Shown: piece by piece, positions 14,463 to 19,883 of the stretch
Layout: each line of letters opens with the position of its first letter
Position numbering within the stretch: the stretch's first letter is position 1
Assembly (NCBI GenBank): GCA_030650995.1
Contig: JAUSCY010000142.1
Span: forward strand, 1 to 64,000
Direction: 5' to 3'
Length of the DNA stretch: 64,000 nt
Source: Sheuella sp.
Lineage (GTDB): Bacteria > Pseudomonadota > Gammaproteobacteria > Burkholderiales > Burkholderiaceae_B
The notes under the pieces: generated by a model
Seen by the model: the letters and a program-made list of their open reading frames with translations, nothing else
What the model was told of the DNA's origin: nothing
Database searches by the model: none
Made by a program: the position numbers and the translations under genes

Positions 14463-17375
14463 ATGCAAACAACTTCCAGCACAGTGTCCAGATCAGATAC
14501 CGTCCCTCATTTCGCGCAATCAGATGCGCCTATTACCGAGGCGATCTGGAGCCAGTACCACATCATCAGGCGTAATGGCTCAGTCGTGAATTTTGAGCCG
14601 AGCAAAATTGGTATTGCCATGACCAAAGCCTTTCTGGCGGTCAATGGCGGCCAAGGCGCAGCCTCGGCACGTGTGCGAGAGATCGTTGAGTCCTTAACAC
14701 GCCAGGTCGTGTCTGCGCTGGTGCGCAGCCGTCCAAATGGCGGCACCTTCCATATTGAAGACGTGCAAGATGCCGTGGAGCTGTCCTTGATGCGCTCAGG
14801 CGAGCATGATGTCGCACGCTCTTACGTTCTGTATCGTGAGCGTCGCTCACAAGAGCGCGCTCAGGCTAATGCCGAGCAGGCTCCTGTTGCTGCGTCGACC
14901 ATGCACGTGACCGACAATGGCATCCGTAAACCGCTTGATCTGGCTAAGCTTCAAGCGACGATTGAATCTGCAGGCTTTGGTCTGGGTGATTTTGTCGATA
15001 CGGTATCAATCCAGAAAGAAACACTGAAAAACCTGTACGACGGCGTGCCGATCGAAGAAGTTTACAAATCAGCCATTCTTGCAGCACGTCAGATGGTTGA
15101 AAACGATCCTGCCTACACAAAAGTCACTGCGCGCCTGTTGCTGCACACGATCCGTAATGAAGTCCTGGGCGAAGAAGTCTCCCAGGAGGACATGAACACA
15201 CGCTACGCGACATATTTCCCTACCTTTATCAAGCGCGGCGTTGAGGGCGGCCTGCTCAACTCTGAGCTGTCGCGCTATGACCTGCCCCGTCTGGCCGCCG
15301 CACTCGATGCGAGCCGTGACATGCAGTTCGACTATCTCGGTCTGCAAACACTGTATGACCGATATTTCCTTCATATCCGTGGTCAGCGTATCGAACTGCC
15401 CCAGGTGTTCTTCATGCGCGTCGCGATGGGTCTGGCAATCGCCGAGATCGACCGCGAAGCCCGCGCCATCGAGTTCTACCAGATCCTGTCGTCTTTTGAC
15501 TTCATGAGCTCAACCCCGACGCTGTTCAATGCAGGCACGCTGCACTCGCAGCTCTCCTCCTGCTACCTCTCTACCGTTTCGGATAACCTGGATGGCATTT
15601 ACGAAGCCATTAAAGACAATGCGCTGCTTGCCAAATACGCGGGTGGTCTGGGCAATGACTGGACACCGGTGCGTGCGATGCGCAGTCACATCAAGGGTAC
15701 CAATGGCGAAAGTCAGGGCGTTGTGCCATTCCTGAAAGTCGTCAATGACACCGCAGTCGCAGTGAACCAGGGTGGCAAACGCAAAGGCGCAGTCTGCTGC
15801 TATCTCGAATCATGGCATCTCGATATCGAAGAATTCCTCGACCTGCGCAAGAACACCGGTGACGAGCGTCGCCGTACGCACGACATGAACACCGCTAACT
15901 GGATTCCCGACCTGTTCATGAAACGCGTCATCGAGGGTGGCGACTGGACGCTGTTCTCGCCATCAGACTGTCCTGACCTGCATGAGAAAGTCGGCGAAGC
16001 TTTTGAGAAAGCCTATACAGGCTACGAAGCAAAAACCGAGCGTGGCGAACTCACGCTGTTCAAGAAAATGCCCGCTATCAATCTGTGGCGCAAGATGCTC
16101 TCGATGCTGTTTGAAACCGGCCACCCATGGATCACATTCAAAGATCCCTGCAATATCCGTTCACCACAGCAACACGTCGGTGTCGTTCATAGTTCAAACC
16201 TCTGCACCGAGATCACGCTCAACACGAACGAATCCGAAATCGCAGTTTGCAACCTCGGTTCAGTGAACCTGCTAGCTCACCTCAAGCAAAACGCTGATGG
16301 TTCGCACGTACTCGATCAGGACAAGCTGCAGCGCACCATCAAAATCGCAATGCGCATGCTCGACAATGTGATCGACATCAACTATTACGCTGTCGACAAA
16401 GCGCGCAACTCCAACGTACGTCACCGTCCTGTCGGTATGGGCATCATGGGATTCCAGGACTGCCTGCATGTCATGCGCGTGCCTTACGCATCACAGCAAG
16501 CGATTGAGTTCGCAGATCGTTCGATGGAAGCAGTTTGCTATTACGCATACGGCGCATCAAGCGATCTGGCAGCAGAGCGTGGTCGTTACGCAAGCTTTGA
16601 TGGCTCGTTGTGGTCACAAGGAATCCTGCCGCACGACTCCGTTGCGTTGCTGCGCAAACATCGCGGTGGCTATGTTGAAGTTGATGATTCCATCACAATG
16701 GATTGGGATTCGTTGCGTGCACGCATCAAACAACAAGGTATGCGCAATTCGAATTGTGTTGCTATTGCCCCAACCGCAACAATATCGAATATTATCGGTG
16801 TGTCTGCGTGCATCGAACCAACATATCAAAACTTGTACGTTAAATCGAACCTCTCCGGCGAGTTCACTGTCGTTAACGAACACCTTGTTCGTGACCTCAA
16901 AAAACTCGGACTCTGGGATGAAGTCATGGTCGCCGATCTGAAATACTTTGACGGCAGCTTGTCCCGCATCGATCGCGTTCCCGCTGATCTGAGAGCCCTA
17001 TACGCTACCGCTTTTGAAGTCGAACCCAGCTGGATCGTCGAATGCGCATCACGTCGCCAGAAATGGATTGACCAGGCACAATCGCTCAATATCTATATGG
17101 CAGGCGCTTCGGGCAAAAAACTTGATGACACTTACAAGCTCGCCTGGCTGCGCGGTCTCAAAACAACCTACTATCTGCGCACGCTGGGTGCAACGAGCGC
17201 TGAAAAATCTACTGGCCGTGGTGGTGAACTCAATGCCGTCAATTCCTCAGGTGCAAGCTCCACAACAGGTACTTTCGCTTCCGCTCAGGTCATGCCTGAG
17301 CCGGAAATTCTCGGTGTTGCCTGCACGATGAGACCTGGCGATCCAGGTTTCGAAGAATGCGAAGCCTGCCAATAA
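14463..17375 (+). CDS. nrdA: Ribonucleoside-diphosphate reductase subunit alpha (class Ia)
   Basis: Catalytic subunit that makes dNDPs from NDPs using a radical from NrdB. At 970 residues it is much longer than E. coli NrdA (761) because of two N-terminal ATP-cones (about 35-135 and 145-245), the overall activity switch; the second starts without a full first strand and may be degenerate. Catalytic features: SQLSSCYL (active-site Cys), NLCTEI (Asn, thiyl-radical Cys and Glu), AVCNLGS (partner Cys), [10 protein letters not shown], and the C-terminal shuttle pair in ECEACQ. AGGAG lies seven bases before the ATG. nrdB follows after 19 bases. Confidence 0.98.
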
Positions 17376-17394: not shown

Positions 17395-18573
17395 ATGCTT
17401 ACTTGGAACGACGAACCTCTCCAGTCAACCACACCACCTCCCGGTGCAACACCCGCTTCGGCCTCGCAGCCGATGCGTGGCGCAACGGGCGTGTTTGGAG
17501 ACTCTGCATTACCTACACCCGGTCTCACACAGAAACCCGTTGCGGCTGATCCCGCAACGCGTGTCAATGCTGCAGACAAACGCATCATCAACGGCAAGAC
17601 CGATGTCAACCAGCTCGTACCGTTCAAGTACAAATGGGCCTGGGAAAAATACATCGCGACCTGCGCGAATCACTGGATGCCCCAAGAGATCAACATGTCA
17701 CGCGACATCGCTCTCTGGAAAAATCCAAATGGCCTGACCGATGATGAGCGTCGCATCATCATGCGTAACCTCGGTTTCTTTGTGACAGCTGATTCGTTGG
17801 CTGCAAACAACATTGTGCTGGGTACCTATCGCCACATCACAGCACCCGAATGTCGCCAGTTTTTACTGCGTCAGGCATTCGAAGAAGCGATTCACACCCA
17901 TGCTTATCAATACATTGTTGAGAGTCTGGATCTGGACGAATCAGAAATTTTTAATGCTTACAACGAAGTTAAATCCATCCGCGATAAAGATGAATTTCTC
18001 ATTCCCTTTATCGATGCGATCGCGGATCCAAACTTTAAAACAGGTACTCCCGAGGCCGACCAGACACTGCTGAAGTCACTCATTGTTTTTGCCTGCCTGA
18101 TGGAAGGACTGTTCTTCTACGTAGGTTTCACGCAGATTCTTGCGTTGGGCCGTCAGAACAAAATGACAGGAGCCGCCGAACAATACATGTACATCCTGCG
18201 CGATGAATCCATGCATTGCAATTTCGGTATCGACCTGATCAACACCATCAAGCTTGAAAATCCACACCTCTGGACACCAGCGTTCCGTGAAGAGATTCGC
18301 GGTCTGTTTGCGAAAGCTGTTGACCTTGAATATGCATATGCTGAAGACACGATGCCGCGCGGTGTGTTGGGTTTGAATGCACCAATGTTCAAATCATATT
18401 TACGCTTTATTGCAAATCGTCGTTGCCAACAGATTGGAATTGAGCCATTATTCGCACAGGAAGAAAATCCGTTCCCTTGGATGGCTGAAATGATTGACTT
18501 AAAGAAGGAACGTAATTTCTTCGAAACACGTGTGATCGAGTATCAGACTGGCGGTGCCCTGAACTGGGAATAA
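17395..18573 (+). CDS. nrdB: Ribonucleoside-diphosphate reductase subunit beta (class Ia)
   Basis: Ferritin-like diiron subunit that holds the stable tyrosyl radical. The radical Tyr is Y171 in EAIHTHAYQ, with iron ligands E164 and H167 just before, and the second helix pair shows ESMHCNFG. A low-complexity Ser/Thr/Pro-rich N-terminal extension of about 45 residues precedes the fold. The C-terminus GGALNWE is the tail that docks on NrdA. Co-transcribed with nrdA. Confidence 0.98.
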
Positions 18574-18837
18574 TTCGCTTTGTCAGAGTCTTGACACACT
18601 GCAGTACTTTGTCGGCGGGAGTGCGGTTAACCCACCGATGCCATTTGAATTGGTTCGCGCAATAGGTGCGAGAGGCAGTTCAAATGGCTGTGCCGTATTC
18701 ATTAGCACAAACCGTTGTTCTACCGCAGGATGGGTAGTGGTTTGTTCCTATGAATAACTCGGGCGACATGAAATCCCATGGTGGGATGAGTCAAGCACGG
18801 GTTTAATGTTTGGGACCCTGAACTAAGGAGTATTACC
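18574..18837 (+). other. Structured non-coding stretch between nrdB and the H1-like gene
   Basis: No convincing gene in 264 bases, but three inverted repeats: 18640-18649 with 18679-18688 (perfect 10 bp GCCATTTGAA/TTCAAATGGC, with an inner TCGC/GCGA); 18707-18713 with 18739-18745 (ACAAACC/GGTTTGT, enclosing CTACC/GGTAG); and 18773-18778 with 18782-18787 (ATCCCA/TGGGAT). A perfect -35 hexamer TTGACA is at 18591-18596 without a good -10 at normal spacing. It may be a structured 5' leader of the H1-like gene, a small RNA, or the 3' end of nrdAB. Confidence 0.45.
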
Positions 18838-19056
18838 ATGGCAACAGCCAAAAAAGCAGTTAAGAAAGCAGCAGCAAAAAAGCCAGCAGCTAAAAAAGTT
18901 GTGGCTAAGAAGCCAGTTGTAGCAAAGAAGCCCGTTGCAGCTAAGAAAGTTGTAGCTAAGAAGCCAGCAGCCAAGAAAGTTGCAGCTAAAAAGCCAGCAG
19001 CCAAAAAAGTTGTAGCAAAAAAACCAGCAGCTAAACCAGTTGCAAAAAAAAAATAG
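18838..19056 (+). CDS. Histone H1-like Ala/Lys-repeat nucleoid protein (frame stops early)
   Basis: Highly basic DNA-binding protein of the bacterial H1-like class (as BpH1 of Bordetella), thought to coat and condense the nucleoid. The 72 readable residues are almost only Ala, Lys, Val and Pro in repeats such as AAKKP and AAKKVVAKKP. AGGAG at 18825-18829 supports the ATG. The frame ends in TAG directly after a run of ten A (19044-19053). The next frame continues the same composition to 19178 (separate entry), so the complete protein would be about 113 residues. Repeat number varies widely in this family. Confidence 0.85.
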   Translation: MATAKKAVKKAAAKKPAAKKVVAKKPVVAKKPVAAKKVVAKKPAAKKVAAKKPAAKKVVAKKPAAKPVAKKK

Positions 19057-19178
19057 TTAAAAAAGCTGCCGCTAAAAAACCGGCAGTAGCCGCCCCTTCG
19101 GTCGCAGCAGCTCCAGTGGCAAAAACTGCACTGAATCCAGCAGCATCATGGCCATTTCCTACGGGTGGCCGTCCTTAA
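19044..19178 (+). other. A10 tract and out-of-frame C-terminal part of the H1-like gene
   Basis: After the ten A at 19044-19053 the -1 frame reads VKKAAAKKPAVAAPSVAAAP and closes with NPAASWPFPTGGRP before TAA at 19176-19178. This tail has the composition and end motif expected of the family and is surely part of the gene. One more A (or three net -1 mechanisms: ribosomal slippage, transcript slippage, or a real indel) would join the parts. A 6-bp hairpin CTGCCG/CGGCAG (19066-19071, 19081-19086) lies 12 bases after the tract. Assembly error in the homopolymer cannot be excluded. Confidence 0.8.
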
Positions 19179-19205
19179 ACTTTTAGTTTAAAGACGCAAG
19201 CTTAG

Positions 19206-19232
19206 ACCGCCCGGCTCGCCGGGCGGTTTTTT
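19206..19232 (+). terminator. Rho-independent terminator after the H1-like gene
   Basis: A strong G/C stem ACCGCCCGG/CCGGGCGGT with a four-base loop, followed by six T. It lies 27 bases beyond the shifted-frame stop, which supports 19178 as the true gene end. Confidence 0.9.
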
Positions 19233-19319
19233 ATTTCAAGTTGTTGCAGCGATGATCCATGCATCTTGCTCACATGCGACAATGATCACCCATGTCAGGC
19301 TATCGGAGATCCCGTCCTC

Positions 19320-19883
19320 ATGCTTAGTGAAATTCTTCGTTTTTTACTCGAAATTGGCTCATCACTTTTCGGTGCATTGCTGTTGGCGCGCGCATGGATT
19401 TATGCGGTCAAACTGCATCCATTCAACCCAATGTCTCAGGCTATCCACCAGGCGACCAACTGGCTGGTTGTGCCTATGCGCAAAATTCTTCCTGGGGTGA
19501 AGTCATTTGACTGGGCAAGTCTGGTTGCAGCCTTGATAGTCGCTTTGGTCTATCTGCTGCTGATGTGGGTCGTCTCGACACGCACACTTCCTCCTCCAAC
19601 CTTACTGCCCGCCATGTTGCTTGCAGCCTTGATCGCCGTCGCGCGCTGGTCTCTGAGCCTGATAGTCTGGATGACCCTGATTCAGGCAGTGCTGTCCTGG
19701 GTCAATCCACTGGCAACCATCATGCCGGTTTTACGTACGCTGACTGAGCCCCTGCTTCTTCCCATCCGGCGCATCATGCCAAATTTCGGCTCACTGGATC
19801 TGTCGCCATTCGCTCTGCTCATCCTTGCACAAATCGCAATGATGGTACTCAACCGGATCAGCTTCACACTGTTGGGAGTTTGA
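19320..19883 (+). CDS. YggT family membrane protein
   Basis: Inner membrane protein with two YGGT repeats of about 85 residues; each has a pair of membrane helices and an Asn/Arg-containing motif (WLVVPMRKILPG near 60; LTEPLLLPIRRIMPNFG near 155). In E. coli YggT has been linked to resistance to osmotic shock; elsewhere the family is tied to cell division or envelope function. ATG at 19320 gives 187 residues, the family length; the frame opens upstream but would add an unusual soluble lead. Five bases before the MscS-type channel gene, so both may serve envelope/osmotic stress. Confidence 0.88.
   Translation: MLSEILRFLLEIGSSLFGALLLARAWIYAVKLHPFNPMSQAIHQATNWLVVPMRKILPGVKSFDWASLVAALIVALVYLLLMWVVSTRTLPPPTLLPAMLLAALIAVARWSLSLIVWMTLIQAVLSWVNPLATIMPVLRTLTEPLLLPIRRIMPNFGSLDLSPFALLILAQIAMMVLNRISFTLLGV

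Follow-up and report, generated by a model that had tools for sequence, protein, structure and literature searches.

A probable programmed -1 slippage site conserved in a histone H1-like gene of Zwartia-type bacteria and Polynucleobacter

The textbook bacterial frameshift genes are prfB, which is the +1 case, and dnaX, which in Escherichia coli undergoes -1 programmed ribosomal frameshifting; to our knowledge, few chromosomal, non-mobile bacterial genes carry a conserved -1 shift. Stimulators of frameshifting generally begin 5–8 nt downstream of the slip site (excerpt of PMC4066793), and ribosomes have been described to slide by -1 in vitro on successive AAA codons (excerpt of PMC9207662). In runs of A or T, single-base insertions prevail and deletions rarely arise (excerpt of PMC5574713), and nine is the length at which counterselection against such runs shows in many genomes (Baranov et al., PMC1088944, in part). 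A literature search found no paper on a frameshift in the H1-like family, where a listing in supplementary tables is possible; the word 'histone' is absent from the main text of PMC3711429, and the available part of PMC5009743 has a single, unrelated mention of it.

The gene described here lies in a window of 64,000 nucleotides, which is the whole stretch of DNA analysed, from Sheuella sp. (assembly GCA_030650995.1, contig JAUSCY010000142.1). Its relevant features are:

14463..17375, + strand: nrdA, large chain of ribonucleotide reductase, a neighbour on the upstream side
17395..18573, + strand: nrdB, ribonucleotide reductase small chain, directly upstream of the H1-like gene, an order that is the same in Polynucleobacter loci
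18838..19056, + strand: 0-frame open reading frame of the H1-like gene (short product), 72 aa, ending in AKKK and then TAG
19044..19053, + strand: A10 run, candidate slip site, in 0-frame phase A AAA AAA with TAG directly next
19053..19178, + strand: tail in the -1 frame, 41 residues and a stop codon, bearing a conserved WPFPTGGRP end
19054..19056, + strand: 0-frame stop TAG, directly 3' of A10
19065..19087, + strand: small hairpin starting 12 bases past A10, one of several folds, unconserved in the genus
19204..19229, + strand: terminator-like hairpin common to both frames, 11 pairs and a T tail, past the second stop

Read directly, the 0-frame ends in GCA AAA AAA AAA TAG, and the last residues of the -1 frame are NPAASWPFPTGGRP, with the stop at 19176–19178. 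The original prediction held that an Ala/Lys frame ends in TAG right after A10 while the -1 frame continues, that the two products have 72 and about 113 residues, and that the terminator comes only after the second stop; all of this was confirmed, the predicted shifted product being 72 + 41 = 113 aa long. The hairpin it placed 12 bases past the run is present, but it is not conserved in the genus, and a better placed one was found only in Polynucleobacter; the minimum-energy fold of 19054–19113 is another, longer pairing (z -1.57, with 15 of 200 shuffles equally good). On the 3' side of the H1-like gene lie genes for a YGGT family protein and a mechanosensitive channel. A10 is uncommon in this genome: across both strands of its 3.13 Mb there are 25 distinct runs of nine or more A's, five of which are A10 or longer.

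The region 5' of the gene has features of its own. A conserved leader at 18728–18837 reads GATGAATARCYCG, then CACGGGTTTAA, then TGGGACCCTGAACTAAGGAG; it is common to other genera of the family (L062, L077), and Polynucleobacter leaders of the H1-like gene retain GATGAATGGCTCG. Rfam gave no match at 18400–19400 at gathering cut-off, and none for the leader up to E = 1. The stretch separating nrdB from the H1-like gene contains an inverted repeat at about 18640–18690, GCCATTTGAA...TTCAAATGGC, and a similar pair, CCATTTGA...TCAAATGG, stands 5' of the gene in L087, L107, L116, L124, L085, and L088.

Like E. coli dnaX, this is a chromosomal cellular gene with an A-rich slippery site and a putative -1 shift, and in Polynucleobacter the likeness extends to an A AAA AAG site and a hairpin that begins 6 nt past it, within the 5–8 nt spacing given in the excerpt of PMC4066793. 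Unlike in E. coli dnaX, the shift here would give the longer, ancestral product, the 0-frame stop comes directly after the run, and there is neither an upstream Shine-Dalgarno-like stimulator nor, in Zwartia, a conserved hairpin. The site also resembles those of transcriptional slippage in Thermus thermophilus dnaX and Shigella mxiE in having about nine or more identical bases, and mxiE yields its longer product only with an extra base, as would hold here (PMC1088944, in part). Unlike T. thermophilus dnaX and mxiE, the splits include A8G and A6G sites.

The two pieces of the window gene match opposite ends of one NCBIfam model, NF038053, each below its whole-protein curated cut-off of 80 (0-frame piece: positions 1–75, 29.3 bits; tail: positions 154–195, 47.8 bits, E 2e-12), and an intact relative, L002, reaches 100.8 bits against the same model. 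The 0-frame open reading frame scores 33.8 bits against Pfam HC2 (cut-off 40), and the conserved C-terminal WPFPTG end of the NF038053 family is present in the window's -1 frame. We take the gene to encode a putative histone H1-like DNA-binding protein of this family, with DNA binding and a role as a lysine-rich nucleoid protein predicted from the name of the family. A pull-down with a DNA-mimic protein recovered an H1-like HctB in Burkholderia cenocepacia (excerpt of PMC9060813). By profile, chlamydial Hc2/HctB and the H1-like proteins of Burkholderiales (PF07382, NF038053) belong to the same protein family; chlamydial Hc2 is also variable in length, through in-frame repeats (excerpt of PMC2848022), whereas in the H1-like gene here a frameshift at one constant position close to the C-terminus would determine length.

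Zwartia and Sheuella are both placed in Alcaligenaceae in the NCBI taxonomy. The WPFPTG pattern, which occurs in 225 of 268 family genomes (some unrelated matches included), was found in 29 of the 32 genomes of the window's genus (Zwartia/Sheuella type), at 31 places, including a second one in G021 that is locus L179; two places were other genes with the same motif (L004, L021) and were dropped, leaving 29 genes. The script scored 21 of these as -1 splits and three as intact in a single frame (L002, L012, L019). L020 is split at a contig edge, with only 13 upstream codons on its contig, and was taken as split since A10-TAG is visible, while the contigs of the remaining four (L022–L025) begin past the site, which places them outside the 25 evaluable genes. 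Comparison with sister strains, which had been proposed as a check, found the -1 split to be common to 22 of the 25 evaluable members, as A10-TAG in 20 and as A9G-TAG in two (L031, L179). The 0-frame stop is TAG in all 21 script-scored split loci and likewise in L020. Among named species, Zwartia vadi, Z. panacis, and Z. hollandica are split and Sheuella amnicola is intact. A chance origin of the window's split is excluded, because the split is kept in these 22 members. It is not required, because intact genes occur in the same genera (3 of 25 here and at least 15 of 110 in Polynucleobacter).

The same counts bear on an assembly or sequencing error in the A-run, which the original prediction had allowed for. 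The window does come from a 151-contig assembly that is 91 percent complete, but independent assemblies carry the same split, with A10-TAG in 20 of 25 evaluable genus members and isolates among these; isolate coverages are 56 and 286 (Zwartia vadi and Z. panacis) and 191 (Polynucleobacter nymphae). Such an error is refuted for the genus, and we assign it a negligible probability. Phase variation, in which replication slippage in the run would toggle the tail between cells, had likewise been raised; homopolymer runs mutate readily, and relatives show states with other run lengths. A switch would nonetheless be expected to show up in mixed states, and the run is constant across species, with A10-TAG in 20 of 22 genus splits and A9G-TAA in 84 of 89 Polynucleobacter splits. 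Because of this constancy switching of the tail is unsupported, and we consider it very improbable.

Selection acts on the tail in the frame that a shift would open. Pairwise comparison of the tail frame gives a pN/pS of 0.07 in the window's genus (19 members; L020, L031, and L179 left out), versus 4.87 and 5.15 in the other frames, and 0.33 in Polynucleobacter (72 distinct tails), versus 1.37 and 1.25. By this measure, the tail is under purifying selection in the window's genus. An in-frame ATG, GTG, or TTG is missing from 19 of 21 genus tails and from 18 of 89 Polynucleobacter tails. The tail thus appears to be read as protein, and because 19 of 21 genus tails lack a start codon, it can hardly begin on its own in the genus and would have to be reached by a shift. 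The 0-frame open reading frame appears complete by itself, which could suggest a pseudogene in decay or a pair of distinct genes with an independent start for the tail, but the low tail pN/pS, the missing start codons, and the single terminator serving both frames all speak against this; either version is refuted for most genus members and is left with hardly any probability. The split, its conservation, and selection on the reading of the tail are direct observations on these genes.

We propose that programmed -1 slippage on the A-run probably produces a short and a long H1-like protein from one gene, since many related species have retained the same kind of interruption; that both the site and the tail are conserved lends strong support to the earlier suggestion of two proteins from a single gene by slippage. 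Most products would end at the TAG after the run, giving 72 aa that comprise the Ala/Lys arm alone, and a fraction would shift by -1 into the 41-residue tail with its WPFPTGGRP end, giving about 113 aa. From the patterns described, we infer shifting in cells, the product ratio, and the slipping agent. The shift most likely would set the ratio of the two protein forms, because the short product retains the Ala/Lys arm without the WPFPTG end.

The split extends to Polynucleobacter (Burkholderiaceae), in which 112 of 121 genomes have the motif. Of 111 places fetched (G702 left out), 110 have the expected end; L234, with a different end, was dropped by the script. The 110 loci were scored by script as 89 -1 splits, one +1 split, 15 intact, two cut, and, outside the 89, three unresolved (L201, L277, L283); L211 and L291 lie at a contig edge. 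By eye, L283 is another -1 split, L277 is a short intact gene without the run, and L201 has several indels. Among the 89 splits, 84 carry A9G-TAA, three A8G-TAA, one A10G-TAA, and one A6G-TAG. The sole +1 split among the 110 loci, L235, has A8G rather than A9G, with the run at -107 from the WPFPTG motif.

Elsewhere the gene is mostly in one frame. For the remainder of the family, the script scored 108 fetched loci, a few of them duplicates, as 92 intact, three split, two cut, and 11 unresolved. Of the 11, L132 is split by eye, L113 is intact but short, and nine belong to genus g23, with short open genes that lack a K-rich frame upstream. The three script-scored splits and L132 all belong to genus g40, which includes Pelistega suis and perhaps Taylorella; six of its seven genomes have the motif, with four split and two intact. 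In the other genera of the Polynucleobacter family, fetched genes are single-frame by script, save for locus L352, a Polynucleobacter locus. The same gene in a Limnohabitans sp. MAG (L171, minus strand) has A12 and its tail in the +1 frame; it remains a single-MAG lead, because none of 294 genomes gave a relative of this case. Along with L235, this +1 case weighs against the proposed -1 shift. A gapped order-level pattern search matched four of 399 genomes and missed the window's own genome, so that its negatives were set aside. Separately, the titles of L157, L160, L173, L176, and L186 (Bordetella parapertussis, Methylopumilus, Thermoflexus) misfit the placement of the loci, which look like mislabelled freshwater MAGs.

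Species counts overstate independence, because many species share few origins. On an NrdB tree of 53 rows, whose bootstrap is not fully settled, the split state needs six changes at fewest, and the well-supported branches force at least three. Sister pairs differ by a single base in the run, as with L012, intact (A10-GTAA), and L179, split (A9-GTAG). In another reading, the split would be only a tolerated one-base indel in the run, rescued by ordinary slipping of polymerase or ribosome that yields sufficient full-length protein, without regulation and without a role for the short form. This reading of adventitious rescue draws on the common occurrence of A-run slippage in bacteria (excerpts of PMC1088944 and PMC5574713), on the intact sisters, and on states that lie one A apart, such as A11 in intact L287 versus A10 in split Zwartia. 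Against it, split and run length persist in most species of two genera, with several separate origins within one gene, and the site itself shows a preference in composition. In Polynucleobacter, 86 of 89 splits have a codon ending in A just ahead of the last Lys run (all 89: GCA 72, GTA 13, GCT 3, GAA 1), whereas at other places in these genes GCA makes up 182 of 1361 Ala codons that precede KK; runs of at least eight A's outside the site number one in 24,219 nt in Polynucleobacter and none in 7,173 nt in the genus; and the three Lys codons at the genus site are AAA-AAA-AAA in 19 of 20, with AAA at 473 of 777 Lys codons in the body, all of these codon and run counts being not independent draws, because the species are related. 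The preference for nine or more A's matches the nine-base length of Baranov et al. (PMC1088944, in part). We therefore judge adventitious rescue unlikely.

Programmed -1 slippage could be the work of either machine, and a ribosomal -1 slip or slide on A AAA AAA or A AAA AAG and one A added by polymerase, which would lead to the same -1 tail, have about equal standing. The X XXY YYZ heptamer is in 0-frame phase, as A AAA AAA then TAG in the window and as A AAA AAG in the Polynucleobacter splits, followed by TAA in 88 of 89 and by TAG in L238. The Polynucleobacter hairpin begins 6 nt past AAG, has at most eight pairs (columns 11–18 with 27–34 of alignment A1), and has 89.2 percent of cells paired; over 48 nt downstream the fold beats codon shuffles at a mean z of -2.34 (40 loci), and covariation in two Polynucleobacter hairpins did not exceed shuffled controls. 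The position of this hairpin, 6 nt past A AAA AAG, favours the ribosome in Polynucleobacter. In Zwartia the two agents are evenly matched. No conserved stimulator structure was found in the Zwartia genus, where mean z against codon shuffles was 0.07, -0.41, 0.13, and -0.56 at 48, 60, 75, and 90 nt downstream. Repeat-length gaps made the automatic consensus fold of both groups uninformative, and an upstream Shine-Dalgarno-like tetramer was found in none of 21 genus splits and none of 89 Polynucleobacter splits. These negative results on structure, covariation, and the tetramer count against the proposed programmed shift, as do the intact genes in both genera.

Run length at the frame junction enters the same question. 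The window has A10, and 85 of 89 Polynucleobacter splits have A9 or longer directly at the stop, the shorter sites being A8G in three and A6G in one, the last with A10 upstream. On the ribosomal side, the tail of L133 homologous to intact L134 begins 5' of the 0-frame stop, close to an A AAA AAG site that has six A's only. The preference for nine or more A's, together with the lack of a conserved Zwartia stimulator, fits polymerase insertion or sliding on poly(A).

A more tentative extension of programmed slippage, which we find doubtful though conceivable, is that the A-run acts as a conserved device with two outputs whether the gene is split or intact. In split species a slip would be needed for the long protein, and in several intact relatives, where GTAG or TAGT comes next to A10–A11, slipping would truncate the protein at that same position. 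Nine of the 15 intact Polynucleobacter genes have the run (seven A10-GTAG, one A11-TAGT, one A9-GTAA). The intact-state part, which draws on these nine and on three genus members, is weak because GTAG after KK is also the common Val context in these genes. If the two-output device were real, regulation would act on the short-to-long ratio of a nucleoid protein, which might depend on the speed of translation or on lysyl-tRNA charging at the time when the neighbouring nrdAB supplies DNA precursors.

Automated annotation would overlook the C-terminus, or report a pseudogene, for the genes of well over a hundred species in this set. The H1-like gene is an easily tested system for ribosome versus polymerase slipping at A-runs, and it concerns a putative DNA-packaging protein of abundant freshwater bacteria, with several apparent origins of the split in the same gene.
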